Assembly (NCBI RefSeq): GCF_031585635.1 | Contig: NZ_CP134196.1 | Location: 1,488,001-1,552,000, forward strand | DNA length: 64,000 nt | Source: Paraburkholderia sp. FT54 | Lineage (GTDB): Bacteria > Pseudomonadota > Gammaproteobacteria > Burkholderiales > Burkholderiaceae | Direction: 5' to 3' | Part shown: positions 31,100 through 47,660 of the stretch, in pieces | Position numbering within the stretch: the first letter of the stretch is position 1 | How the letters are laid out: each line of letters begins with the position of its first letter | The notes under the pieces: generated by a model | The model's input: the letters and a program-made list of their open reading frames with translations, nothing else | Database searches by the model: none | What the model was told of the DNA's origin: nothing | Translations under genes and position numbers: made by a program

Positions 31100-31445
31100 C
31101 AGGAGGTGTCCTCGTAATCGGCGAAGAAGTGACGAAGATGCGAACAACGAAGCACAAGAGCAAAGCCCGCGAAACGGACGCGGCGCCAGAACGAGCCCAA
31201 GCAAATGCAAGACATGTGCCATCCATTGCATCGTGTGGTGCGTGATTGCCGACACACCGGTGTGCTTAACGTCTACAACCTGGCTCACATATTGCAAACG
31301 ATCCGCAGCGTCGATCGTTAGCGATTCCAACGATTCTTTTTGCGCGATCACGGTGCGTGCCGGGTCCGTCGCGGGGCATGAACTGGCCATTCCGGTTCAT
31401 CCGCTGATGCGCTCCAGCGCTTTTTCTCACCCACGGCTTCTTCAA
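31100..31445. other. Divergent promoter region, PotA-like ATPase / CE4 hydrolase
   Basis: No gene seen. This 346-base stretch must carry both promoters of the divergent importer and hydrolase-regulator units. Its clearest element is a 12-base perfect palindrome at 31253-31264. Confidence 0.6.
31253..31264. promoter_or_regulatory. Perfect palindrome CACACCGGTGTG, possible GntR operator
   Basis: A 12-base perfect palindrome in the middle of the divergent intergenic region. GntR-family regulators bind short palindromes between divergent target operons, and the GntR gene at 32408 lies in the plus-strand unit. The match to a known GntR consensus is not evident. Confidence 0.35.
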
Positions 31446-32411
31446 ATGAACGACACACGGAACATGCCCGTTACAGAGAACCGCGCGCGTCAATTGCTCG
31501 CCACGCATGGCCGCTTTCCCTATCGCCCGATCACCGACAGCGACGCGTTCCGCTGGCCTGGCGACAGCGGGCTCGCGGTTTATCTGGGCTTCAACATCGA
31601 ACACTTTGCCTTCGGCGAAGGGCTCGGCGCCGCGCTCGGTCCGATCTCGCCGCAGCCGGATGTGCTGAACCATAGCTGGCGCGAGTACGGCAATCGCGTC
31701 GGGGCGTGGCGCTGCATCGAACTGTTCGATCAACTGGAATTGCCGGTGGGCACGCTCATCAACACCGCGCTCTATGATCATTGCCCGGAGTTGATCGCAG
31801 CCTGCGTGGCGCGCGGTGACGAACTAATCGGCCACGGCCATACGAACGCGCACCGGCAGAGCGATCTCGACGAAACCAGCGAGCGTGAGTTGCTTCTCCA
31901 TTGCCGCGAACGGATCGCCGAAGTGTCCGGCACAGCACCGCGCGGCTGGCTTTCACCATGGATTTCGGAGTCCCATCTGACGCCCGATCTGCTCGCGGAG
32001 ACCGGTTATCGCTATACGCTGAACTGGTGTCACGACGACCGTCCGGTGCGGATGGCCACGCGCGGCGCGCCGCTCTGGTCGATTCCGTATCCGCAGGAGC
32101 TCAACGATTTACCCATGATGGTGGGCCGCCATATGGATGGCCGCGACTTCGCCGACATGGTCATCGACCAGTTCGACGAGATGCTCGAACAGGCCAATCG
32201 CGGCGCGCAGCCGCAGGCGCTCGTGATGGGCATCGCACTGCATCCGTACCTGGTCGGGCAGCCCTATCGTTTGCGGCATCTGCGCCGCGCGCTTGAACAT
32301 ATCGCCGCGGCACGCGCCCGCGGCGACGTGTGGATCACCACGCCGGGCGCCGTCGCGAATCATATGGACGTGCTGGAGCGGGATGGTATCGTGCGCCCGG
32401 CCATCGCATGA
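31446..32411 (+). CDS. CE4-fold polysaccharide deacetylase family hydrolase (allantoinase PuuE-like)
   Basis: A 321-residue protein with the NodB/CE4 barrel. It has GDSGLAVYLGFNIEHFAFGEG at the start of the domain, VGTLINTALYDHCPELIAACVARG, the metal-site motif GHGHTNAHRQSDLDE, APRGWLSPWISES and a late HPYLVGQPYRLRHLRRAL. No signal peptide, so it is cytoplasmic, unlike chitin or peptidoglycan deacetylases. Cytoplasmic CE4 proteins of this kind are close to PuuE allantoinase and related amidohydrolases acting on small ureides or amides. The GntR stop-start overlap (ATGA) downstream and the divergent amine importer suggest catabolism of the imported compound. Confidence 0.82.
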   Translation: MNDTRNMPVTENRARQLLATHGRFPYRPITDSDAFRWPGDSGLAVYLGFNIEHFAFGEGLGAALGPISPQPDVLNHSWREYGNRVGAWRCIELFDQLELPVGTLINTALYDHCPELIAACVARGDELIGHGHTNAHRQSDLDETSERELLLHCRERIAEVSGTAPRGWLSPWISESHLTPDLLAETGYRYTLNWCHDDRPVRMATRGAPLWSIPYPQELNDLPMMVGRHMDGRDFADMVIDQFDEMLEQANRGAQPQALVMGIALHPYLVGQPYRLRHLRRALEHIAAARARGDVWITTPGAVANHMDVLERDGIVRPAIA

Positions 32412-33763: not shown

Positions 33764-35350
33764 TCACACCGCAAGCGCCCGGCCATCACTGCGGGGATCG
33801 TGCGCGCCCGAGGCGGACCCGTCCGCCTCGATGCGAATCACACCCGGGTGTCCCGCCAACGGACTGCGCGCCGCAATCGCGCTTATTTCATGACCGCGCG
33901 CGGCGAGCGCCGCGAACACGTCGGCGCCGGCGTCCGCTTCGAGCTTCAACGCATCGCGTGTATCGGAGAAGGTCTTGCCGAGCAGAAAACGCGGGCGGGC
34001 GAGGGCGGTCAACGGGTCCATGCCGTAGTCGATCAGCCGCGTGAGAATCGCGGCGAGCGTTTGCGGTTGACCGTCCGCGCCCTGCGTGCCGAACAGCAAC
34101 CGCGGACGGCCGTCCTTCACATACATGCCGGGGTTGAGCGTATGGAACGGCCGCTTGCCCGGTTGCACGGCGTTATGATGCGCGGGGTTCGTGCTGAACG
34201 ACGCACCGCGGTTGTGCCACAGAATGCCGGTATCGCCCGCTACCACGCCGCTGCCCCAATCGAAGTAGACCGTTTGCAGGACGCTCACGCTGCGGCCTTC
34301 GCGATCCGTCGCGCCGATGAACACCGTATCGCCCGGACGGAAAACATGCGGCCATGCGCGCGCGGCATGCAGATCGATCGAGCGTGCATGGGCGTCGAGC
34401 GTGGCGGGCGAGAGCATCTCATCGACCGGCACGGGGTTGAACTCGGGATCGCAGACGAAACGGTCGCGATCCACGAACGCGCACTTCACGGCTTCCACCA
34501 ACAGATGATAGTAATCCGCGCTGCCTTCAGGAATAGATCCTGGATCGAAGCGCTCCAACGTGCCCATGATCTGCAAGGTCGTCACGCCTTGCGTGGGTGG
34601 CCGCATGCTGACCAGTTCGCCGCCGCGATAGGCGACCCGCAGCGGCGCCTCATCGCGCGCGCGTGTGCGGGCGAGGTCGCTCGCAGTGAGCGGCGAACCG
34701 GCCTTGCGGAGACCAGCGGCGATCCGCTCAGCCAGGTCACCTTCATAGAACTCGCGCGCGCCGAAACGGGCAATGCGCTCGATGCTCTTCGCCAACGCCG
34801 GCTGCACGAAGCGCTCGTCGATTGCAGGGATGCGCCCGTGCGGCGCGAAGGTCGCCGCGAAGCCGTGCAACGCATGCAATTCGTCGGCGCGCATGGTTTG
34901 CCAGAAATGCTGCGACGGCGTCACGGGAAAACCGTCGGCGGCAAGCTCCAGCGCGCGCTCGAACAGCGACGGCCACGACTGCTTGCCGCCCCACGCGCTT
35001 TGGCTGATCCCGTAGGCCTGATGCCATGTATCGACGGTCGCGGCGGTGGTGATCGCGGAAGCCGGACCGCGCAACGGAATCGCACCGTGGAACGCCGGCA
35101 GTTGCGCCGCGGCCTGGCCGATGCCCGATACCGTGCGCAACATCCCATGCCGGTCGCCGATCACCCAGAAGGCGTCGCCGCCGAGCCCGGTGAAATGCGG
35201 GTACGTCACGCACAGCGCCGCGCCGATCGCGATGGCGGCTTCGATGGCGTTGCCGCCCGCGCGCAGGACGTCGCGGCCCGCCTCGCTTGCTAGCGCATGA
35301 GGACTGGTGACCATGCCGCCATAGGTGCCGGCGGGTTTCAGATTGTGCAT
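33764..35350 (-). CDS. Gamma-glutamyltransferase family protein
   Basis: A 528-residue Ntn-hydrolase of the GGT superfamily. N-terminal GGNAIEAAIAIGAALCVTYPHFTGLGGDAFW is the family opening. Autoprocessing should occur before the Thr in GDTVFIGATDREGRSVSV, aligned with the nucleophile Thr of classical enzymes, and the small-subunit pattern FDWGSGVVAGDTGILWHNRGASFS and GTQGADGQPQTL follow. The usual TTHxS motif is altered to DTVFIG, so activity on gamma-glutamyl compounds is uncertain; cephalosporin-acylase-like or other amidase activity is possible. No signal peptide: a cytoplasmic member. GGAG precedes ATG 35350. Convergent with the flavin reductase. Confidence 0.85.
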   Translation of the reverse strand: MHNLKPAGTYGGMVTSPHALASEAGRDVLRAGGNAIEAAIAIGAALCVTYPHFTGLGGDAFWVIGDRHGMLRTVSGIGQAAAQLPAFHGAIPLRGPASAITTAATVDTWHQAYGISQSAWGGKQSWPSLFERALELAADGFPVTPSQHFWQTMRADELHALHGFAATFAPHGRIPAIDERFVQPALAKSIERIARFGAREFYEGDLAERIAAGLRKAGSPLTASDLARTRARDEAPLRVAYRGGELVSMRPPTQGVTTLQIMGTLERFDPGSIPEGSADYYHLLVEAVKCAFVDRDRFVCDPEFNPVPVDEMLSPATLDAHARSIDLHAARAWPHVFRPGDTVFIGATDREGRSVSVLQTVYFDWGSGVVAGDTGILWHNRGASFSTNPAHHNAVQPGKRPFHTLNPGMYVKDGRPRLLFGTQGADGQPQTLAAILTRLIDYGMDPLTALARPRFLLGKTFSDTRDALKLEADAGADVFAALAARGHEISAIAARSPLAGHPGVIRIEADGSASGAHDPRSDGRALAV

Positions 35351-35766
35351 CGAGGCTCCGCCAGGGAAGGTTCGCCGGAAGGTGCCGCGAGTATACGGTC
35401 GCCAATTTTTAGATGATGAGCCATCTGATAACACGCAGGGCAGCGCGCTTCGACAACGCTGAACACGTCGCGCCTTGTCCGTGCGCCTGGCGATTCGGCC
35501 GGCGCGGCGATACGCGTAGCGTCGGGCTTTGCCGATGCGCGTGTCGGCGCGAATCCAGGGCGCGCGAGCCCCGAGTTGGTGAGCGCTGCACCATCGGCGG
35601 CGCCGGGCGGCGTCGTTTCACGCGCGCTGCGGCCGCTGTGACTGAAGCACTGAAGCGCCGTCTGGCGAGGCTTTGAAGCGATCTTCGCGATGAACCAGGT
35701 AACTGGCATAGCTCCTGCTAATTTGAGTTCGAACTTGTATTCAAGATTGAACTCAAGGAAAAACAG
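35351..35766. other. Divergent region, GGT-like / atzF
   Basis: No gene can be supported in these 416 bases; short frames on both strands look like GC-rich noise. The right end is AT-richer and holds the inverted repeat described next, so the promoter of the atzF operon should lie near 35690-35760. Confidence 0.55.
35723..35756 (+). promoter_or_regulatory. Inverted repeat before atzF, probable operator
   Basis: TTGAGTTC (35723-35730) and GAACTCAA (35749-35756) are perfect arms around an 18-base spacer that itself holds CTTG-N4-CAAG; the left arm also forms the palindrome GTTCGAAC. The right arm runs into the atzF ribosome-binding site (AAGGA 35755-35759). Binding here would block initiation; the GntR regulator at 44290 is the natural candidate. 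Confidence 0.55.
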
Positions 35767-37629
35767 GTGCCTATTTCTTCTCCCATGACGGTCAAAGGTC
35801 TGCTCGCTGCATATGCCGCCGGCAGCCTCACGCCCACCGAAGCCGTGACGTCGGCGCTCGCTCGGATCGACGCCATCGACCGGCCCGAAGTCTGGATCCT
35901 GCGCGTGCCCGCAGCCGACGTGCAGGCTCGCGCGCAAGCGCTCGAAGCCTTATACGCCGCGCAGGGCAGTGCGGTGTTCAATCAGATGCCGCTGTTCGGC
36001 GTGCCGTTCGCGGTCAAGGACAACATCGACGTCGCCGGCTTGCCGACCACAGCCGCGTGCGAGTCCTTCAGCTATACGCCGGACACGTCGGCGTTCGCGG
36101 TGCGGCGGCTCATCGATGCCGGCGCCATTCTGATCGGCAAGACCAATCTCGATCAGTTCGCCACCGGGCTCGTCGGTACTCGTTCGCCGTATGGCGCCGT
36201 GCGGCATGCCGAGTCGCCACTGCGCGTGTCGGGCGGTTCGAGTTCGGGCTCGGCGGTCGCGGTGGCGGCGGGATGCGTGGCGTTTTCGCTCGGCACCGAT
36301 ACCGCGGGTTCGGGCCGCGTCCCGGCGGGATTCAACGGTCTGGTCGGTCTGAAGCCTTCGTTGGGACTGGTCAGCAAACGTGGCGTGGTGCCCGCGTGCC
36401 GAAGCCTCGACACGATCTCCGTGTTCGCCCACGACGTCGACGATGCCTGGCGCGTGCTCAGCGAAATGGCGCGCTTCGATTCGCTCGACGGGTATTCGCG
36501 CAAAGTGCCGGCCCTTGGCCTGCTGCGTTCGGCACCGCGCATCGGCGTGCCGGAGCAATTGGAGTTCTATGGCGACGCCGGGGCGAGCCGGGCATTTTCA
36601 AGCGCGTTCGACACGCTCACCACACATCTGCATCTGTCGACGCAACCGATCGACTTCGCGCCGCTCAAGTCTGTTTCCGCGTTGCTCTACGACGGCCCGT
36701 GGGTCGCCGAACGGCGCGCGGCGCTCGGCACTTTTTTTGCAACCCGTCACGAAGCGATCGATGCGGTCGTGGCCAAAGTGATCGGCAAGGCGGAGCAGTT
36801 CAGCGCCGCCGATGCCTTCAACGGCCAGTACGCGCTGGCCGATCTGAAACGGCACGCCGAAGCGCTCTTCGAAACGATCGACATCCTGATCGTACCCACC
36901 ACGCCGACGCATCCGCTGATTGCGGACGTGCAGGCCAACCCCGTCGAACTGAACAGCCAACTTGGCTACTACACCAACTTCGTCAACCTGCTCGATCTGT
37001 GCGCGCTGGCCGTACCGTGTCAGCGTCGCGGCGACGGGTTGCCGGCCGGCGTCACGCTGATCGCGCCGAGCGGCGCGGACCGCCGGCTCGCCGAACTGGG
37101 CGCGCGGATTCAGGCACTGTTCGCGAACGCCACCGAGGCCACAGAGGCCGCAACTGCAACCACGCTCATCCAACCGCTGCCATTTCAGGAACCCACCATC
37201 ACCGTTGCGGTGGTCGGCGCGCATTTGCGCGGGCAGCCGTTGAACTGGCAGCTCCAGGAAGCCGGCGCGCGTTTCGTGAAAGCGACGCATACCGCGCCCG
37301 GCTACAAACTCTACGCGCTCGCCAACACCCAGCCGCCCAAACCCGGCCTCGTGCGCGCGACGCAGCAGCAAGGCCAGCCGATCGCCATCGAACTATGGGA
37401 AGTGCCGCTGCGCACCTTCGGCCAATTCGTCGCCGACGTGCCCGCGCCGCTCGGCATCGGCACGTTGCAACTCGCCGACGGCCACAGTGTGAAAGGCTTC
37501 ATTTGCGAGCCGTCGGCCGTGAGCGACGACAGCGGCGCGCTCGACATCACGTCGTTCGGCGGCTGGCTCGCGTATCTGGCCAGCCTCAAGCCCAAGCCGC
37601 AAGCCAACCCTCAGGCCAATACACGCTAA
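35767..37629 (+). CDS. atzF: Allophanate hydrolase
   Basis: A 620-residue amidase-signature enzyme that hydrolyses allophanate to ammonia and CO2. The catalytic triad is visible: Lys84 in FAVKDNIDVAG, the cis-Ser in GGSSSGSA (156-163) and the nucleophile Ser182 in GTDTAGSGRVPAGFNG. The C-terminal ~170 residues (from PTITVAVVGAHLRGQPLNWQL) are the extra domain that distinguishes AtzF and urea-amidolyase allophanate hydrolases from other amidases; in AtzF it supports assembly and decarboxylation. GTG 35767 is chosen for AAGGA seven bases upstream; ATG 35785 is an alternative. First gene of the biuret-type cluster, without a urea carboxylase nearby. Confidence 0.94.
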   Translation: MPISSPMTVKGLLAAYAAGSLTPTEAVTSALARIDAIDRPEVWILRVPAADVQARAQALEALYAAQGSAVFNQMPLFGVPFAVKDNIDVAGLPTTAACESFSYTPDTSAFAVRRLIDAGAILIGKTNLDQFATGLVGTRSPYGAVRHAESPLRVSGGSSSGSAVAVAAGCVAFSLGTDTAGSGRVPAGFNGLVGLKPSLGLVSKRGVVPACRSLDTISVFAHDVDDAWRVLSEMARFDSLDGYSRKVPALGLLRSAPRIGVPEQLEFYGDAGASRAFSSAFDTLTTHLHLSTQPIDFAPLKSVSALLYDGPWVAERRAALGTFFATRHEAIDAVVAKVIGKAEQFSAADAFNGQYALADLKRHAEALFETIDILIVPTTPTHPLIADVQANPVELNSQLGYYTNFVNLLDLCALAVPCQRRGDGLPAGVTLIAPSGADRRLAELGARIQALFANATEATEAATATTLIQPLPFQEPTITVAVVGAHLRGQPLNWQLQEAGARFVKATHTAPGYKLYALANTQPPKPGLVRATQQQGQPIAIELWEVPLRTFGQFVADVPAPLGIGTLQLADGHSVKGFICEPSAVSDDSGALDITSFGGWLAYLASLKPKPQANPQANTR

Positions 37630-37653
37630 CCCTCGATCAGGAATTTGGACACC

Positions 37654-38751
37654 ATGACCAGCCGCCGCCATTTCATCAAGAGCGCCAGCCTGTTGACGCT
37701 CGGCAATATTCTGCCCATCCAGTCGGTGTTCGCCGCGCCGAAGACCACCGTCGGCGTGATCTACGTCGGCGCGCGCGGCGACTACGGCTACAACCAGGCG
37801 CAGGCGCAAGCCGCCGCCGTGCTCAAGAAGATGCCCGACGTGAAGGTGGTGGAAGAAGAGAACGTGCCCGAGACCATCGCCGTGCAGAAGACGATGGAAG
37901 CGATGATCGAACAGGACGGCGCCACGCTCATCTTCGCGACCTCGTTCGGCTACTTCGACCCGCACGTGCTGAAGATGGCGGCGAAGTATCCGAAGGTGCG
38001 ATTCGCCCATTGCGGCGGTTTGTGGAAGCAAGGCAATCCGTCGAACATCACCAGCTACTTCGGCTATATCGACGAGTGCCAGTACCTGAACGGCGTGGTC
38101 GCCGGCCATATGACCAAGAGCAAGAAGCTCGGCTTCGTCGCCGCCAAGCCGATTCCGCAGGTGCTGCGCAATATCAATTCGTTCACGCTCGGCGCGCAGT
38201 CGGTCGATCCGTCGATCACCACGCAGGTGATTTTCACGGGCGACTGGTCGATGCCGGTCAAGGAAGCCGAAGCCACCAACAGCCTCGTGGATCAAGGCTG
38301 CGACGTGCTGACCTGTCACGTCGACGGTCCGAAGGTGGTGGTCGAGACCGCGGAAAAACGTGGTGCGATGAGCTGCGGCTATCACGCGAGCCAGGCCGCG
38401 CTCGCGCCCAAGGGTTATCTGACCGGCGCGGAATGGGATTGGGCGACGCCGTACAAGCAACTGGTGACGGGCGCGCAAGCCGGCACGCCGCAGCCCAACG
38501 TATTGCGCGGCGGCCTGAAAGAGGGCTTCGTGAAGATGTCGCCGTACGGCGCGAAAGTGACGGCCGCCGCGAAGCAGAACGCCGACTCGATCCGCAGCAG
38601 CATGGTGGCCGGCAACTTCGTGATCTTCAAAGGCCCGATGAAGGACAACAAAGGCGGCATGGCGATCGCCTCGGGCGCGAGCCACAACCAGACCGACTAC
38701 ACGCTGGAAAGCATGAACTATCTGGTCGCGGGCGTCGTCGGCCAGATCTGA
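37654..38751 (+). CDS. BMP-family ABC transporter substrate-binding protein
   Basis: A 365-residue periplasmic binding protein of the Bmp/Med type. The N-terminus SRRHFIKSASLLTLGNILP is a twin-arginine-like signal, and the mature part opens with KTTVGVIYVGARGDYGYNQAQ, the family start. Bmp proteins usually bind nucleosides or purine-like ligands; here the operon argues for a ureide such as biuret. ATG 37654 is preferred over TTG 37645 because AGGAA (about 37639-37643) is too close to the latter. It follows atzF after 24 bases. Confidence 0.9.
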   Translation: MTSRRHFIKSASLLTLGNILPIQSVFAAPKTTVGVIYVGARGDYGYNQAQAQAAAVLKKMPDVKVVEEENVPETIAVQKTMEAMIEQDGATLIFATSFGYFDPHVLKMAAKYPKVRFAHCGGLWKQGNPSNITSYFGYIDECQYLNGVVAGHMTKSKKLGFVAAKPIPQVLRNINSFTLGAQSVDPSITTQVIFTGDWSMPVKEAEATNSLVDQGCDVLTCHVDGPKVVVETAEKRGAMSCGYHASQAALAPKGYLTGAEWDWATPYKQLVTGAQAGTPQPNVLRGGLKEGFVKMSPYGAKVTAAAKQNADSIRSSMVAGNFVIFKGPMKDNKGGMAIASGASHNQTDYTLESMNYLVAGVVGQI

Positions 38752-38785
38752 TGACGGCGATGTTTACGTGGATCAAGGAGCCGTA

Positions 38786-39901
38786 ATGCGCCCCAATGCC
38801 TCTGCCGCGAGAGTGATGCTCGCGCTCTTGCCCGCGCTGCCGACCGTGCTGGCGGTGCTCGGCACCTTGCTGCTGTTCTCGCTGTTCCTGCTGGTGCAGG
38901 GCCAGCCGGCGCCCGACGCAATTGCACTGATTTTCCAGGGCGCGTTCGGTTCGTCATTCGCCTGGCAAAGCACATTGCTGCGCGCCGCGCCGTTGATGCT
39001 CACCGCCTTGTGCGTCGCCTTGCCCGCGCAGGTCGGGCTGATCGTGATCGGCGGCGAGGGCGCGCTCGCGCTGGGTGGCATGTGCGCCGCCATCGTCCCG
39101 CAGATGCTGCCGCATAACACGCCCTGGCTCATCGCCACACCGTTGATGGCGCTCGCCGGCATGCTCGCCGGTGGCGTCTGGATCGGCGCGGTCGGCGCGT
39201 TGCGGCAATGGCGCGGCGTCAACGAGACCATCAGCAGTCTGTTGATGTCGTATATCGCCATCGCCGTGTTCAAGCATCTGGTGGAAGGGCCGCTGCGCGA
39301 TCCCGCGAGTCTGAACAAGCCGTCGACGCTGCCCGTGCCCGACGCGATGATGATCGGCTCGATTCCCGGACTCGACACGCATTGGGGCCTGTTCTGGGGC
39401 GTCGTTGCGTGCATCGCGGCGTGGGTGTTCGTGAAGTTCAGCACCAAAGGTTTTGCGATGCGCGTGGTGGGCGGCAGCAATCGCGCGGCGCGTCTGGTCG
39501 GCTTGCCCGTCAATATGCTTGCGGTGACAGCGTGCGTGCTGGGCGGCGCCGCCGCTGGGCTCGGCGGCATGTTCGAAGTCGCGGCGGTGCAGGGCAGCGC
39601 GAACGCGTCGTTGCTCGCGGGCTACGGTTACGCAGGCATTCTCGTCGCCTTCGCGGCGCGCCAGAATCCGCTCGCGATCATCGCGTGCGCGCTGATGATC
39701 GGCGGTATCGAGGCGAGCGGCAGCCTGCTGCAACGGCGCCTCGATTTGCCCGACGCCACCACGCTTGTCCTGCAAGGGCTGCTGTTCGCCAACCTGCTCG
39801 CGTGGGAGGCGCTTGGCAGCCGCATCGCCGCATGGCGCGTGAAATTGCAAGCGGCCGCGCAGACCGATGTCGCCGTGCAACTGGAGCAGACCCATGCCTG
39901 A
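38786..39901 (+). CDS. ABC transporter permease (BMP/nucleoside-type, subunit 1)
   Basis: A 371-residue permease with about nine to ten helices, of the branched BPD_transp_2 family paired with Bmp proteins (YufP/NupB-like). It has LPAQVGLIVIGGEGALALGGM and the EAA-like loop region GFAMRVVGGSNRAARLVGLPV. The ATG 38786 follows AAGGAG by five bases. It overlaps the next permease by eight bases. Confidence 0.9.
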   Translation: MRPNASAARVMLALLPALPTVLAVLGTLLLFSLFLLVQGQPAPDAIALIFQGAFGSSFAWQSTLLRAAPLMLTALCVALPAQVGLIVIGGEGALALGGMCAAIVPQMLPHNTPWLIATPLMALAGMLAGGVWIGAVGALRQWRGVNETISSLLMSYIAIAVFKHLVEGPLRDPASLNKPSTLPVPDAMMIGSIPGLDTHWGLFWGVVACIAAWVFVKFSTKGFAMRVVGGSNRAARLVGLPVNMLAVTACVLGGAAAGLGGMFEVAAVQGSANASLLAGYGYAGILVAFAARQNPLAIIACALMIGGIEASGSLLQRRLDLPDATTLVLQGLLFANLLAWEALGSRIAAWRVKLQAAAQTDVAVQLEQTHA

Positions 39902-40820
39902 TATGCACTCGCCCATCGTGATTCTGCTGTTGTCGCTGTTCGCCGGCGCGATCCGCGTCAGCACGCCTTATCTGTTTGTCAGTCTCGGCGAGTGTCTGAC
40001 CGAGAAGGGCGGCCGCGTGAATCTCGGCCTGGAAGGCATTCTCGTGTCCGGCGCGATGAGCGGTTATGCCGGCGCGTTTCTGAGCGGCTCGCCGTGGATC
40101 GGCGTGCTGGCCGCGGGCGTGGTCGGTTTGCTGCTCGGTTGTCTGCACGGCCTTGTGTGTTCGTTGCCGCGCGTATCGGACATCGCCTTCGGCATTGCGT
40201 TGATGTTGCTCGGCACCGGACTCGCCTTCTATCTCGGCAAACCCTTTATCGAACCACAAGCACCGATGCTGCCGTTCATCGACCTCGGTGCGTGGACTTC
40301 GTCGCCGCAACTGCACAACGCGCTGCATCTGAATCTGCTGTTCGTGATCGGCGTCGCGCTCGCCTTCGTTTTGCAATGGGGCTTGCGCAATACGCGCTGG
40401 GGCATGGTTCTGCGGCTCGTCGGCGATCACGCGGAAACCGCGCGTGCGATGGGCTATCCGCTGACGCGCGTGCGCATCGCGGCGACGGCGGCAGGTGGCG
40501 TGTTAGCGGGCATTGGCGGCGCGTATCTGTCGCTGGTTTATCCGGGGAGCTGGAACGAGGGGCTTTCCAGCGGCCAGGGCCTGATGGCGGTCGCGCTTGT
40601 GATCTTCGCGCGCTGGCAGCCGTTGCGCTGCCTGTGGGCCGCGTTGCTGTTCGGCGCCGCGGGTGCGCTCGGCCCCGCCTTGCAGGCGATCGGCGTGACG
40701 AGCGGCTACTACCTCTACAACGCCGCGCCGTATGTGCTGACGCTCGTGATCATGATCGTCAATTGCCGTCCGGATCGCACGCTGGCGGGCGCGCCCGGCG
40801 AGCTGAGCCTGACTCGCTGA
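39894..40820 (+). CDS. ABC transporter permease (BMP/nucleoside-type, subunit 2)
   Basis: A 308-residue partner permease (YufQ/NupC-like) with STPYLFVSLGECLTEKGGRVNLGLEGIL near the start and the loop WGMVLRLVGDHAETARAMGYPLTRVRI that contacts the ATPase. The ATG at 39894 lies inside the end of the upstream permease gene; ATG 39903 is a possible later start. It completes a heterodimeric membrane channel. Confidence 0.9.
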   Translation: MPDMHSPIVILLLSLFAGAIRVSTPYLFVSLGECLTEKGGRVNLGLEGILVSGAMSGYAGAFLSGSPWIGVLAAGVVGLLLGCLHGLVCSLPRVSDIAFGIALMLLGTGLAFYLGKPFIEPQAPMLPFIDLGAWTSSPQLHNALHLNLLFVIGVALAFVLQWGLRNTRWGMVLRLVGDHAETARAMGYPLTRVRIAATAAGGVLAGIGGAYLSLVYPGSWNEGLSSGQGLMAVALVIFARWQPLRCLWAALLFGAAGALGPALQAIGVTSGYYLYNAAPYVLTLVIMIVNCRPDRTLAGAPGELSLTR

Positions 40821-40879
40821 GATGTACGCGCATCTCCAGACTTTGCTTTTGACGAACCCAAACCCAGGATTTCCCGACC

Positions 40880-41572
40880 ATGACCCGATTCATCGAAGCC
40901 AAACCCTATCCGTGGCCCTACGACGGCAACCTGCGCCCGGACAACACCGCGCTCGTGATCATCGACATGCAGACGGATTTCTGCGGCCACGGCGGCTACG
41001 TCGACAAGATGGGCTATGACCTCTCGCTCACGCGCGCGCCGATCGAGCCGATCAAACGCGTGCTGAAGGCGATGCGCGAACAGGGCTTCACGATCATTCA
41101 CACGCGTGAAGGGCATCGTCCGGATCTCTCCGATCTGCCCGCCAACAAGCGCTGGCGCAGCCGCCGCGCGGGCACCAACGGCGTGGGCATCGGCGACGAC
41201 GGCCCATGCGGCAAGATCCTCGTGCGCGGCGAGCCCGGCTGGGAAATCATCGACGAACTGAAGCCGCTTGCGGGCGAGATCGTCATCGACAAGCCAGGCA
41301 AGGGCTCATTCTGTGCGACGGATCTCGAACTGATCCTGCGCACACGCGGCATCGGGAATCTGATTCTGACCGGCATCACGACCGACGTCTGCGTGCACAC
41401 GACCATGCGCGAAGCCAACGATCGCGGTTTCGAATGCACGGTGCTCGCCGACTGCTGCGGCGCAACCGACAAAAACAATCATGACGCCGCGTTGCACATG
41501 ATCACGATGCAAGGCGGCGTGTTCGGCACGGTGTCGGACTCCGGCGCGCTGCTGCAAACGCTAGGTGGATGA
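40880..41572 (+). CDS. biuH: Biuret amidohydrolase (isochorismatase-like cysteine hydrolase)
   Basis: A 230-residue cysteine hydrolase converting biuret and water to allophanate and ammonia. The catalytic set is visible: Asp29 in [14 protein letters not shown], a Lys in DKPGKGSF (~137-144) and Cys171 in [17 protein letters not shown]. The N-terminus ([13 protein letters not shown]) and the blocks [21 protein letters not shown] and DDGPCGKIL are close to the characterised rhizobial BiuH, closer than to RutB or nicotinamidase. Its product is the AtzF substrate, encoded in the same cluster. The ATPase gene start overlaps its stop (ATGA). Confidence 0.87.
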
Positions 41573-43185
41573 TCATGTCGACCGTACGGCAAGCTCTCGG
41601 TGTTGAAGTGCTGAATGCGAGCAAGTCGTTCGGCGCGTTTCGCGCGCTGGACGGCGTCTCGATCAAGGTCAAGGCCGGCACGATCCACGCGCTGCTCGGC
41701 GAGAACGGCGCGGGCAAGAGCACGCTCGTGAAGGGACTGGTCGGCTACGGCGTGCTCGACGACGGCCAGATCGCCGCCGACGGCCGCGAAGTGCTCATCC
41801 ACTCGCCGCGCGACGCGCAAGCGCTCGGTATCGGCATGGTGTACCAGCACTTCACGCTGGCCGCGGGCCTTTCCGTTGAAGAAAACCTGCTGCTCGCGCG
41901 TGGGCGGATGCCGTGGAAAATCGACTGGAAAGCGGAGCGCGCCGCGCTCGCCGCATTCATGCAGCGCATGCCGTTTCGCTTGCCGCTCGACGCGCCGGTT
42001 GCAGCGCTCGCCGCCGGCGAGAAGCAGAAGCTCGAAATCCTCAAGCAACTCTATCTGCAACAGCGCTTCCTGATACTCGACGAACCGACTTCCGTGCTGA
42101 CGCCGCAGGAAGCCGACGAAGTGCTCGGCCTGATGCGCGAGCTGACCACGCGCGGCGAGCTGACCGTGCTGATGATCACGCACAAGTTCCGCGAGGTGAT
42201 GGCCTACGCGGACGACGTCACCGTGTTGCGCAAGGGGCGTCAGGTCGGCACCAGCGCGGTGGCGAACACCAGCCGCGACGAACTCGCCGCATGGATGATG
42301 GGCACGGTGGCAACGAACGACGCGCCTGTCATGGCCGCCGTGACAGAGGAACGCGTCCCGCGCAAGCCGCTCGACGAATCGGCTCAGGTGCGCCTGGCAC
42401 TGCGCGATGTATCCGTGGAAGACGATCGTGGCCACACGGCGGTCAAGCACGCGACGCTGTCCGTGCGCGCGGGCGAAATTCTTGGGCTTGCAGGCGTCTC
42501 CGGCAACGGTCAGAAGGAACTGGTGGAAGCGCTGGTCGGCCAGCGTCGTGTGAAAACCGGCGACATGCAGGTCGCCGGCAAACCTTACCAGGCGACGCGT
42601 GAGCAGATGACGCAACGGCGCGTCTTCGCGATCCCCGAAGAGCCGCTGAAAAATGCCTGCGTGGGCGGTATGAGCGTGGCGCAGAATCTCGCGTTGCGCG
42701 ACTTCGACCGCGAGCCGTTGCGCCGCGGCGGCTGGTGGCTCGATCGTCGCGCCATCCGTGAGCGTGCCGCGCAGTTGATCGGTGAATTCAACGTGCGGCC
42801 GCCCGTACCCGAGCGCGCGATCGGCACGCTCTCGGGCGGCAATGTGCAACGCGCCGTGCTGGCGCGCGAACTCGGTCAGCCGGTGGATGTGCTGATCGTC
42901 GCCAATCCGGTGTTCGGGCTCGACTTCGCGTCGGTGGCCGATATCCATGCGCGTCTGATGGCCGCGCGCGATGCGGGCGCGGCCGTGCTGCTGGTCAGCG
43001 AAGACCTCGACGAACTGCTCGAACTCGCGGACCGCATCATGGTGATCGCCGAGGGCGAGCTGGTGTACGAAACACCGGCGGCGCGCGCGGATCGCACCGT
43101 GCTCGGCCAGCATATGGCCGGCCACGGCGACACGCCCGTGCGGCCCGCCGTGCCCGCGGAGAAACTCAGGGAAGCCATCGGATGA
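41569..43185 (+). CDS. ABC transporter ATP-binding protein, double-domain (BMP/sugar type)
   Basis: A 538-residue protein with two ABC domains. The N-terminal one has Walker [11 protein letters not shown]-loop [15 protein letters not shown], and Walker [11 protein letters not shown]. The C-terminal one has [12 protein letters not shown] as a degenerate Walker A, signature [15 protein letters not shown], and [10 protein letters not shown] in place of a normal Walker B, as usual for this class where one site is weak. It drives the importer with the two permeases. Start and stop overlap both neighbours by four bases, so it is translationally coupled between the two hydrolases. Confidence 0.93.
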
Positions 43186-43877
43186 CATCGACCCACACGC
43201 TGACTATCGACGCCCAACCCGGCCCGTTCAGCTTCGACTCCGCGAAAACCGCGCTGGTCGTGATCGACATGCAGCGTGATTTCATCGAGCCGGGCGGCTT
43301 CGGCGAATCGCTCGGCAACGACGTCTCGCTGCTCGCGGAAATCGTGCCGACGGTGGCCGCGCTGCTGGCCTTCGCGCGCAGGCATCAATGGCTCGTCGTG
43401 CATACGCGTGAATCGCATGCCGCGGATCTGTCCGACTGTCCGTCCGCCAAACGTCTGCGCGGCGCGCCGAATGCGCGCATCGGAGACGCCGGGCCGATGG
43501 GCCGCATCCTGATTCGCGGCGAGCCCGGCAATGCGATCGTCGAACCGCTCGCGCCGCTGGCGGGCGAACTGGTGATCGACAAACCCGGCAAGGGCGCGTT
43601 CTACGCGACCCGGCTCGGCGAAGAGCTTGCGATGCGCGGCATCACGCATCTGGTGTTTGCCGGCGTGACCACCGAAGTGTGCGTGCAAACCTCCATGCGC
43701 GAAGCCAACGACCGTGGCTACGACAGCCTGCTGATCGAAGACGCCACCGCGAGCTATTTCCCCGCGTTCAAACAGGCGACGCTCGACATGGTGCGCTCGC
43801 AAGGCGGCATTGTCGGCTGGACCGCGCCCCTTGCTTCACTGATCACAATCGACCGGACAATCCCAGCATGGAAATAA
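43182..43877 (+). CDS. Second isochorismatase-like cysteine hydrolase, BiuH paralogue
   Basis: A 231-residue paralogue of BiuH with the same triad: Asp in [15 protein letters not shown], Lys in [11 protein letters not shown] and Cys in [17 protein letters not shown]. It differs in substrate-loop blocks ([33 protein letters not shown]), so it likely hydrolyses a related amide. Candidates are triuret (the TrtA reaction, giving carboxybiuret) or another condensed urea; this is inference. Its ATG overlaps the ATPase stop, and the AtzH-like gene starts inside its last codons. Confidence 0.85.
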
Positions 43878-44254
43878 ATCAGCCCGAAATCGTGGCGCAG
43901 GTCCACGCGGCGTTCATCGAATACGAGCGCGCGCTGGTCGACAACGACGTCGCGGCCATGAACGCGCTGTTCTGGCACACGCCGGAAACGGTGCGCTACG
44001 GCATCGCCGAAATCCAGCACGGCGGCGAGGCGATCCGTGCCTGGCGCGAGCGCTGCGAGCCGGTGCCGAAGTCGCGCAGGCTGCATCGAACCGTGGTGAC
44101 CACTTTCGGCACCGACTTCGCCACTGTCAGCACCGAATTCACCAGCGACGCCACGCCGTTGCTCGGGCGTCAGATGCAAACGTGGGCGAGGCTCAGTCCC
44201 GGCGAGGGTTGGAAAATCGTCGCCGCGCATGTGAGTCTTATCGGCAGATCATGA
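43868..44254 (+). CDS. AtzH-like protein (DUF3225, NTF2-like fold)
   Basis: A 128-residue protein with the SnoaL/NTF2-like architecture of DUF3225: [28 protein letters not shown], then [21 protein letters not shown] and [29 protein letters not shown]. In the cyanuric-acid pathway AtzH deamidates 1,3-dicarboxyurea to allophanate, next to AtzE/AtzG. Here AtzE and AtzG are absent, so its substrate source is unclear. It overlaps the upstream hydrolase by 10 bases. Confidence 0.82.
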
Positions 44255-44289
44255 AACGCTGATAATAAGAAAAAAGGGGCCTTGGCATC

Positions 44290-45036
44290 ATGAACGACGA
44301 CCCGACGAATCTGCTGGAGACGCCCGCCGCTCCAGGCGGGCAGGAGGCGCCCGCGGCCAACCCGCTCGCCGAGCAGGTTTATCAACAGCTCAAGAGCGAC
44401 ATCTTCAGCTTTCGCCTGTTTCCCGGCGACCGTTTTTCGGAGAACGGCATTGCGCAACACTACGGCGTGTCGCGCACGCCGATGCGCGACGGCCTGTTCC
44501 GTCTGCAACGCGAGGGCTATCTGGAAGTCGGTTTCCGGCGCGGCTGGAAAGTGTCGCCGATCAACTTCGATCAGCTCGATCAGCTCTACGATTTGCGTAT
44601 CGTGCTGGAAGTCGCGGCGGTGGAACGAGTCGGCGCGGGTGGCGATATCGCGCATGCGGCTGTCGAGGAATTGAAGACGATCTGGTGTGTCGAGCCCGAG
44701 TTGCGCGAGAGCGATCCGGTGAAGATGTTCGGCATGGACGAGAACTTTCACCGGCAACTCGTTGCCGCCACAGGCAACGCGGAAATGCTGCGCGTGCATA
44801 ACGAAGTGACCGAGCGCATCCGCATCGTGCGGCGGCTCGATTTTCTGAAACCGCACCGCACCAGCGCCACCTACGACGAGCATTCCACCATGGTCAACCT
44901 GATCGAACGCAACCGGCTGACCGAGGCGATCATTCTGCTGCGCGCGCATATCACGCAGAGCAAGCTGGAGGTTCGCAAGATCACACTGTCGATGCTCGCC
45001 GCGGCGCGCGACAGCAAGCTGCCGTTCGTGTCCTGA
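44290..45036 (+). CDS. GntR-family (FCD-type) transcriptional regulator of the ureide cluster
   Basis: A 248-residue regulator. The winged HTH (~18-85) shows LAEQVYQQLKSDIFSFRLFPGDRFSENGIAQHYGVSRTPMRDGLFRLQREGYL, the classic FadR/VanR opening, and the FCD domain follows with metal-site candidates (MDENFHRQLVAATGN; EHSTMVNLIERN). It closes the plus-strand cluster 36 bases after the AtzH-like gene, and is the best candidate to read the pathway intermediate and bind the inverted repeat before atzF. AAGGGG precedes ATG 44290. Confidence 0.9.
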   Translation: MNDDPTNLLETPAAPGGQEAPAANPLAEQVYQQLKSDIFSFRLFPGDRFSENGIAQHYGVSRTPMRDGLFRLQREGYLEVGFRRGWKVSPINFDQLDQLYDLRIVLEVAAVERVGAGGDIAHAAVEELKTIWCVEPELRESDPVKMFGMDENFHRQLVAATGNAEMLRVHNEVTERIRIVRRLDFLKPHRTSATYDEHSTMVNLIERNRLTEAIILLRAHITQSKLEVRKITLSMLAAARDSKLPFVS

Positions 45037-45055
45037 GCAGCTCGATGCGGCAAGC

Positions 45056-47660
<2,605 letters not shown>

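Follow-up and report, generated by a model that had tools for sequence, protein, structure and literature searches.

Nine Co-directional Genes and Two Upstream Features

The window analyzed here is a 64,000-nucleotide stretch of the genome of Paraburkholderia sp. FT54 (8.65 Mb in five contigs; contig NZ_CP134196.1, positions 1,488,001 to 1,552,000, G000:C2:1488001-1552000). Nine genes, all on the plus strand, occupy positions 35767-45036 of the window, the limits at which a sequence-only reading had placed a self-contained cluster for biuret or ureide uptake and hydrolysis. Family calls were made on the nine gene products by Pfam and NCBIfam profile matches, and these, together with the coordinates, confirmed the co-directional genes and the families that had been named. 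The genes and two features directly ahead of them are as follows.

35703..35719, plus strand: sigma54-like -24/-12 site CTGGCATAGCTCCTGCT, a possible nitrogen-controlled operon promoter
35723..35756, no strand: inverted repeat TTGAGTTCGAACTTG-N4-CAAGATTGAACTCAA, a candidate operator for the GntR regulator
35767..37629, plus strand: atzF, allophanate hydrolase with an amidase and a C-terminal domain (TIGR02713, 782 bits; cut-off, 511)
37645..38751, plus strand: BMP-type solute-binding protein of the BMP fold (PF02608, 138 bits, above the Pfam cut-off)
38768..39901, plus strand: permease 1 of an ATP-binding cassette (ABC) importer (BPD_transp_2; Pfam/NCBIfam)
39867..40820, plus strand: ABC importer permease 2 (BPD_transp_2; Pfam/NCBIfam)
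40880..41572, plus strand: biuH, biuret amidohydrolase (NF050097, 411.7 bits; cut-off, 370; 14 of 14 diagnostic residues of BiuH 6azo)
41569..43185, plus strand: ABC importer double ATPase (Pfam/NCBIfam)
43182..43877, plus strand: trtA, triuret hydrolase by 14 of 14 diagnostic residues of TrtA 6xix
43868..44254, plus strand: atzH-like gene or trtB, probable carboxybiuret decarboxylase (PF11533, 171 bits; both AtzH catalytic residues kept)
44290..45036, plus strand: GntR/FCD transcriptional regulator (Pfam/NCBIfam)

The overlaps of 4 to 10 bases described earlier are present as 4 bases between biuH and the ATPase gene, 4 bases between the ATPase gene and trtA, and 10 bases between trtA and the atzH-like gene. 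The overlap of the two permease frames depends on the start chosen, being 35 bases in the longest reading and 8 or none from a later ATG. The BMP gene may start at TTG 37645 or ATG 37654, with a twin-arginine motif close by.

Diagnostic Residues of the Hydrolases

The sequence-only reading had listed the second isochorismatase-like hydrolase as a second cysteine hydrolase; the hydrolase is indeed present, and what had been missed is its identity, which its residues assign to the triuret hydrolase TrtA. Its best match among solved proteins is TrtA (6xix; expectation value [E-value], 8.9e-96), and against the BiuH model NF050097 it reached 241 bits, under the cut-off of 370. Fourteen diagnostic positions taken from PMC7948467 (D24, F29, F35, N41, E72, K129, K132, A134, T158, E160, C162, Y187, Q202, and I205) were read from an alignment of the window hydrolases, TrtA, BiuH, and homologues from the fetched loci described below. 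The window protein is identical to TrtA 6xix at all 14, and it carries the catalytic triad D24, K129, and C162 as well as the TrtA-type discriminating residues F35, N41, A134, E160, Y187, and I205, plus Q202. The window BiuH in turn matches BiuH 6azo at every one of the 14, and thus also at the six that separate TrtA from BiuH (Y35, Y41, S134, D160, T187, and V205 in TrtA numbering). Among the other TrtA rows at 60% identity or more, 76 of 92 have the exact TrtA string and the remaining 16 differ only by Met at 134; among the other BiuH rows at the same limit, the exact string is found in 79 of 83, three rows differ only at 134, and the fourth, an incomplete row from locus L192, shows Cys134 and Ile205, both sets of counts holding some genes twice, as these were fetched twice.

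AtzF contains an amidase domain and an allophanate hydrolase C-terminal domain and is the sole TIGR02713 match over the cut-off in the whole genome. The earlier statement that BiuH makes allophanate and AtzF cleaves it is supported.

The AtzH-like protein keeps Tyr22 and Arg46 (numbering mapped on the 6bjt alignment), the residues named as catalytic in AtzH (PMC6219798), and it closely resembles the solved Bxe_B1374 protein 2owp (E-value, 2.3e-78). A decarboxylase gene, trtB, has been reported to co-occur with trtA (PMC7948467), and a 2025 study of nitrifiers uses trtB in its text and atzH in its abstract, apparently for one gene (PMC12625717). The AtzH-like gene is therefore probably trtB, encoding a carboxybiuret decarboxylase. 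A reading of its product as plain HpxZ, the name given by NCBIfam (155.5 bits; cut-off, 135), was rejected, no oxalurate gene being named among the nine. The enzyme identities of the operon are founded here on these sequence tests.

Recurrence of the Gene Set and Linkage of the Importer to biuH

A scan of the genome collection yielded 584 confirmed trtA loci, of which the best 80 were compared; the loci (L numbers) were chosen by trtA, and linkage to trtA is therefore by construction. The counts on these 80 loci are matches anywhere on a locus and include distant paralogues (e.g., on L029, L053, and L061, and the BMP of L066); contig ends truncate several of the loci. Counted in this way, the BMP gene was matched on 68 loci, the two permease genes on 71 and 73, the ATPase gene on 76, biuH on 72, the AtzH-like gene on 64, the GntR gene on 63, and atzF on 37. 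The closest TrtA proteins among those of the 80 loci that are named come from Paraburkholderia madseniana (92%), Burkholderia sp. OK233 (91%), and P. fungorum (90%). All nine genes stand in the order of the window on 13 of the best 80 loci (L004-L007, L009-L012, L017, L047, L064, L082, and L083), which include two loci of Herbaspirillum (L047 and L064) and two of Pseudomonas (L082 and L083); a formamidase gene is present in addition on at least four of the 13 (L011, L012, L082, and L083). By this recurrence, the nine-gene arrangement is more than chance, and the proposal of one coordinated uptake-and-hydrolysis unit stands.

Because the 80 loci had been chosen by trtA, a second sample was used, consisting of 398 genomes of the phylum (G numbers) drawn without regard to the cluster, with an E-value limit of 1e-75 or better for the BMP and biuH. 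The BMP type of the window was present in 24 of the 398 genomes and biuH in 26. Each of the 24 BMP genomes has its biuH on the contig that carries the BMP gene, at a distance of 2751-4240 bases measured between the listed low ends. All 24 genomes also contain trtA; its distance from the importer is up to 8 kb in 13 genomes and 8-16 kb in four, and the other seven have it at a greater distance or on a different contig. From these distances, the importer follows biuH more strictly than trtA. The P values for linkage in this sample take no account of relatedness among the genomes. A TrtA match was found in 36 of the 398 genomes, 12 of them without this BMP, and the TrtA match of G296 is its BiuH.

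The same figures bear on the explanation that the importer carries biuret only, with triuret entering otherwise or arising in the cell. The constant position beside biuH in 24 of 24 genomes, with trtA within 8 kb in only 13, speaks for it, as does the finding that none of 13 fetched trtA loci without biuH (L214-L217, L219, and L223-L230) has a BMP of the window clade. On the other side, the window trtA sits within the same run of overlapping genes, and the nine genes share one order on 13 of the best 80 trtA loci. We regard a biuret-only cargo as possible, if on the unlikely side.

The Binding Protein Belongs to a Clade Apart from AtzT

The best solved relative of the window BMP is AtzT of Pseudomonas sp. 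ADP, with 37% identity over the alignment. An AlphaFold2 model of the window BMP, built from 12 sequences, had a mean predicted local distance difference test score of 82; its structural matches were led by AtzT (template modeling [TM] score, 0.83-0.85), followed by 3s99 (0.80) and, at approximately 0.7, nucleoside-binding proteins such as PnrA and BmpD. The importer had been described as one of a class known for nucleosides: the BMP class holds, but the closest solved relatives bind nucleobases and, in the case of AtzT, s-triazines, and not nucleosides.

The binding proteins were compared in an alignment of 170 rows, from which exact duplicates had been removed. A ureide group of 77 rows includes the window protein and has at least 48% identity to it; a purine-type group of 66 rows includes AtzT and 3s99 and has 29-38% identity. 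The 27 rows left out were a longer copy of the window protein (L003), two rows removed by hand (L140 with Asp165 and L152 with Val165), two under the limit (L157 with Glu165 and L177 with Ala165), five distant rows with Glu165 (L128, L133, L135, L139, and L141), and 17 more distant paralogues.

The guanine contacts of AtzT are Tyr45, Ser97, Phe98, Glu165, Trp194, Asn218, and Asn220 (PMC6834077). At three of these the window BMP differs, with Gln for Glu165, His for Asn218, and Asp for Asn220. All 66 purine-type rows have Glu at position 165, where the 77 ureide-group rows have Gln (64), Ser (10), or Thr (3); position 242 is Met in all 66 of the former and Gln in all 77 of the latter. Six BMPs found later (47-62% identity, outside the 77) have Gln (three), Thr, Leu, and Ile (one each) at 165. 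His218 and Asp220 are weaker markers, as 3s99 has both and Asp220 occurs in nearly all purine-type rows. In a tree of 93 rows, rooted at the midpoint only and with AtzT and 3s99 on long branches, a branch supported at 100/99 separates the window clade from the other rows, AtzT among them. Lacking Glu165 and grouped separately in the tree, the window BMP falls outside the purine-binding subgroup of AtzT and 3s99.

These comparisons are relevant to the view that the importer still carries purines or oxidized purine bases and that the hydrolases degrade ureides formed from them in the cell. AtzT and 3s99, the closest relatives of solved structure, bind purines (PMC6834077), the window BMP keeps Tyr45, Ser97, Phe98, and Trp194, and the importer linked to such genes in nitrifiers is labeled a nucleoside transporter (PMC12625717). 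In contrast, none of the 77 clade rows keeps Glu165, no purine-degrading family is found among the nine genes, and biuH is linked in every one of the 24 importer genomes. Moreover, purine-type BMPs are already represented in the genome by two further proteins (L163 and L164), and the importer genes of L164 have an 8-oxoguanine deaminase gene close by, separated from them by a LysR-type frame. We therefore consider purine cargo improbable.

A broad s-triazine and ureide importer, for cyanuric acid, ammelide, and biuret, in a cluster serving mainly cyanuric acid use, appears very improbable. AtzT binds ammeline and 2-hydroxyatrazine (PMC6834077), and cyanuric acid hydrolase likewise yields carboxybiuret (PMC7948467); against this, no atzD-like gene is among the nine, and an AtzD search of the genome gave no match, although the controls in the same search gave none either.

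Collectively, the findings suggest that the cargo of this importer is to be moved from "nucleoside" toward biuret and probably triuret. As read from the clade, residue 165, and the linkage to biuH, the importer probably carries biuret, possibly also triuret, rather than nucleosides, much as the sequence-only reading had proposed in naming biuret or a longer condensed urea; the longer urea would be triuret. New here are the BMP clade with its residue signature, its linkage to biuH, and the nearby formamidase described below. The clade, signature, and linkage could serve to correct the label "nucleoside transporter" on such genes.

Upstream Region of the Operon

The site CTGGCATAGCTCCTGCT upstream of atzF matches a sigma54 consensus at 10 of 13 positions, a score reached by 2 of 50 shuffles. 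In a scan of 76 upstream regions, the window included, 12 scored 12 or 13 and 33 scored at least 11, each of the latter being reached by at most 2 of 50 shuffles; 19 of the 76 scored 9 or less. The inverted repeat at 35723-35756, with 15-nucleotide arms that are 87% complementary, lies directly downstream of the sigma54-like site. A search of 35300-45200 for sigma70-type sites gave none. The arrangement would fit a nitrogen-controlled, GntR-regulated operon.

Proposed Pathway and the Points That Weigh against It

We consider it likely, from the genes and residues described above, that the locus is a complete nitrogen-scavenging operon for triuret and biuret, comprising an importer for biuret and probably triuret, TrtA, TrtB, BiuH, and AtzF, under GntR control. 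The BMP-type binding protein, with its twin-arginine signal, would act with the two permeases and the double ATPase to bring biuret and probably triuret into the cytoplasm. There, TrtA would convert triuret to carboxybiuret and ammonia, and the AtzH-like protein (TrtB) would speed the decarboxylation of carboxybiuret to biuret and CO2, a step that also proceeds spontaneously with a half-life of approximately 20 min (PMC7948467). BiuH would then convert biuret to allophanate and ammonia, and AtzF would convert allophanate to two ammonia and two CO2, so that all four nitrogens of triuret would be released. Control of the operon is probably exerted by the GntR protein, and a sigma54-type promoter may take part. 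This pathway is the published one, and residues and gene content place it at this locus; importer cargo, the AtzH-like step, and regulation are the parts that we infer.

Several observations weigh against this reading. In the phylum sample, two of the 26 biuH genomes (G296 and G487) lack this BMP, and 7 of the 24 importer genomes have no trtA less than 16 kb from the importer, which makes triuret as cargo weaker than biuret. In a family sample of 120 genomes, G016 (L132) and G037 (L136) carry the importer and a GntR gene without biuH or trtA beside them, with biuH, trtA, and the AtzH-like gene elsewhere in these genomes; G015 (L187, a 19-kb locus) has AtzF, BiuH, TrtA, and GntR without an importer match, and G017 (L192) has BiuH without a BMP of this clade. 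The window BMP retains the aromatic clamp and the Ser97/Phe98 pair, by which AtzT holds guanine. Residue switches between the two BMP groups showed no concentration around the ligand (they affect 4 of the 28 positions that line it versus 25 of 298 others; P = 0.29), and only the pocket changes themselves are therefore used as evidence here. The identity of the AtzH-like gene comes from family and context only, and the two Herbaspirillum loci with the nine-gene order, L047 and L064, are without a sigma54-like site (8 of 13).

Urea fertilizer contains triuret as an impurity, and urate oxidation forms it as well (PMC7948467); biuret, too, occurs as an impurity of urea (PMC7700744). Importers dedicated to such dilute compounds would reveal how bacteria in soil acquire them.

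Relation to Described Systems

Neither the enzyme set nor its association with an importer of this kind is new to the literature. Operons with trtA, biuH, and atzF and the triuret pathway were described in 2020 for Herbaspirillum sp. BH-1 and Rhizobium leguminosarum 3841, with the same TrtA, BiuH, and AtzF and the same diagnostic residues (PMC7948467); the two Herbaspirillum loci that share the nine-gene order of the window belong to strains other than BH-1. The main text of that report, in the part available to us, does not discuss an importer, whereas the window operon includes one. In ammonia-oxidizing nitrifiers, atzF, biuH, trtA, and trtB were reported in 2025 to be collocated with bmpA-nupABC, with gntR in the legend of Fig. 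6 (PMC12625717). Since this is the gene set of the window, BMP-type importer and gntR included, the earlier suggestion that the unit may be undescribed does not hold. The nitrifier clusters differ in their organisms, and their importer is called a nucleoside transporter, its cargo being untested there in the available text. The AtzT/AtzSTUVW system of Pseudomonas sp. ADP shares the BMP fold, the twin-arginine translocation signal, and linkage to an operon with atzF and atzH, and sigma54 control has been reported there (PMC6834077). AtzT binds guanine at 110 nM (PMC6834077), and the window BMP differs from it at Glu165, Asn218, and Asn220. No measured cargo for the importer was found in the available portions of PMC7948467, PMC12625717, PMC6834077, PMC6219798, PMC5806882, and PMC9800807, subscription papers being mostly outside the search.

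A Formamidase Variant of the Cluster

On two loci, L130 (13541-14542) and L136 (12667-13665), a carbon-nitrogen hydrolase takes the position of trtA; the one on L130 scores 557 bits with the NCBIfam formamidase model, above its cut-off of 406. Close formamidase homologues (E-value of 1e-100 or better) were present in 14 of the 398 phylum genomes. Each of these 14 also carries the importer, and in 13 of them, hence in 13 of the 24 importer genomes, the two lie no more than 7 kb apart (e.g., G108, G116, G138, G324, G311, G262, G269, G369, and G434). A formamidase at 72% identity or more is also found on 30 of the best 80 trtA loci. In the window genome there is no formamidase homologue at 1e-40.

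Pyrimidine oxidation yields formylurea and biuret. TrtA is weakly active on formylurea, at approximately 0.3% of its triuret activity (PMC7948467), and deamination followed by decarboxylation would leave formamide; we suggest formylurea as part of the substrate range of the system. We tentatively put forward a wider proposal, though we hold it to be unlikely: that the importer represents a new specificity class of BMP-type transporters for linear ureides (biuret, triuret, and probably formylurea) and that the system, with its formamidase variant, scavenges ring fragments of oxidized nucleobases. The fragments would then be triuret from urate and biuret and formylurea from pyrimidines, and TrtA- or BiuH-like deamination of formylurea would lead to formamide, to be finished by the formamidase. 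No paper treating formamidase together with biuret hydrolase was found in a search mostly outside the subscription literature.

Neighboring Genes and Related Loci

A further amidase-family match of less than 300 bits occurs on 39 of the best 80 trtA loci, several of these matches being pieces cut by contig ends. On Comamonadaceae loci such as L020, L033, and L070, a further amidase-family gene and an AtzH-like gene stand ahead of the importer. An AtzE-type route from carboxybiuret (AtzE/AtzH type) may exist beside AtzH in some relatives.

Upstream of the operon, a gamma-glutamyltransferase gene (33764-35434, minus strand) is divergent from atzF, and a gene at 31233-32411 (plus strand) encodes a polysaccharide deacetylase-like protein with weak similarity to the allantoinase PuuE (101 bits; cut-off, 425), with a GntR gene and a flavin reductase-like gene as its neighbors. 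The gamma-glutamyltransferase and PuuE-like genes were left out of the operon because they recur on only two and one, respectively, of the best 80 trtA loci.

Further BMP genes were seen on individual loci. A purine-type BMP lies near trtA on L225, a locus without biuH. Second divergent BMPs like that of the window, with Leu or Ile at 165, are present at L211:6267-7373 and L212:8270-9472, the former adjoining trtA on the same strand. On L149 (G052), the BMP gene of the cluster is split into two frames and most of the operon is kept. Finally, L126, L127, L143 (2642-3850), L146, L147, L148, L029, L053, and L061 carry a second BMP-type importer, with a binding protein of approximately 21-25% identity, in the neighborhood of a BiuH-like hydrolase (35-39% identity) whose active-site residues are different; some of these loci also have an AtzH-like gene.

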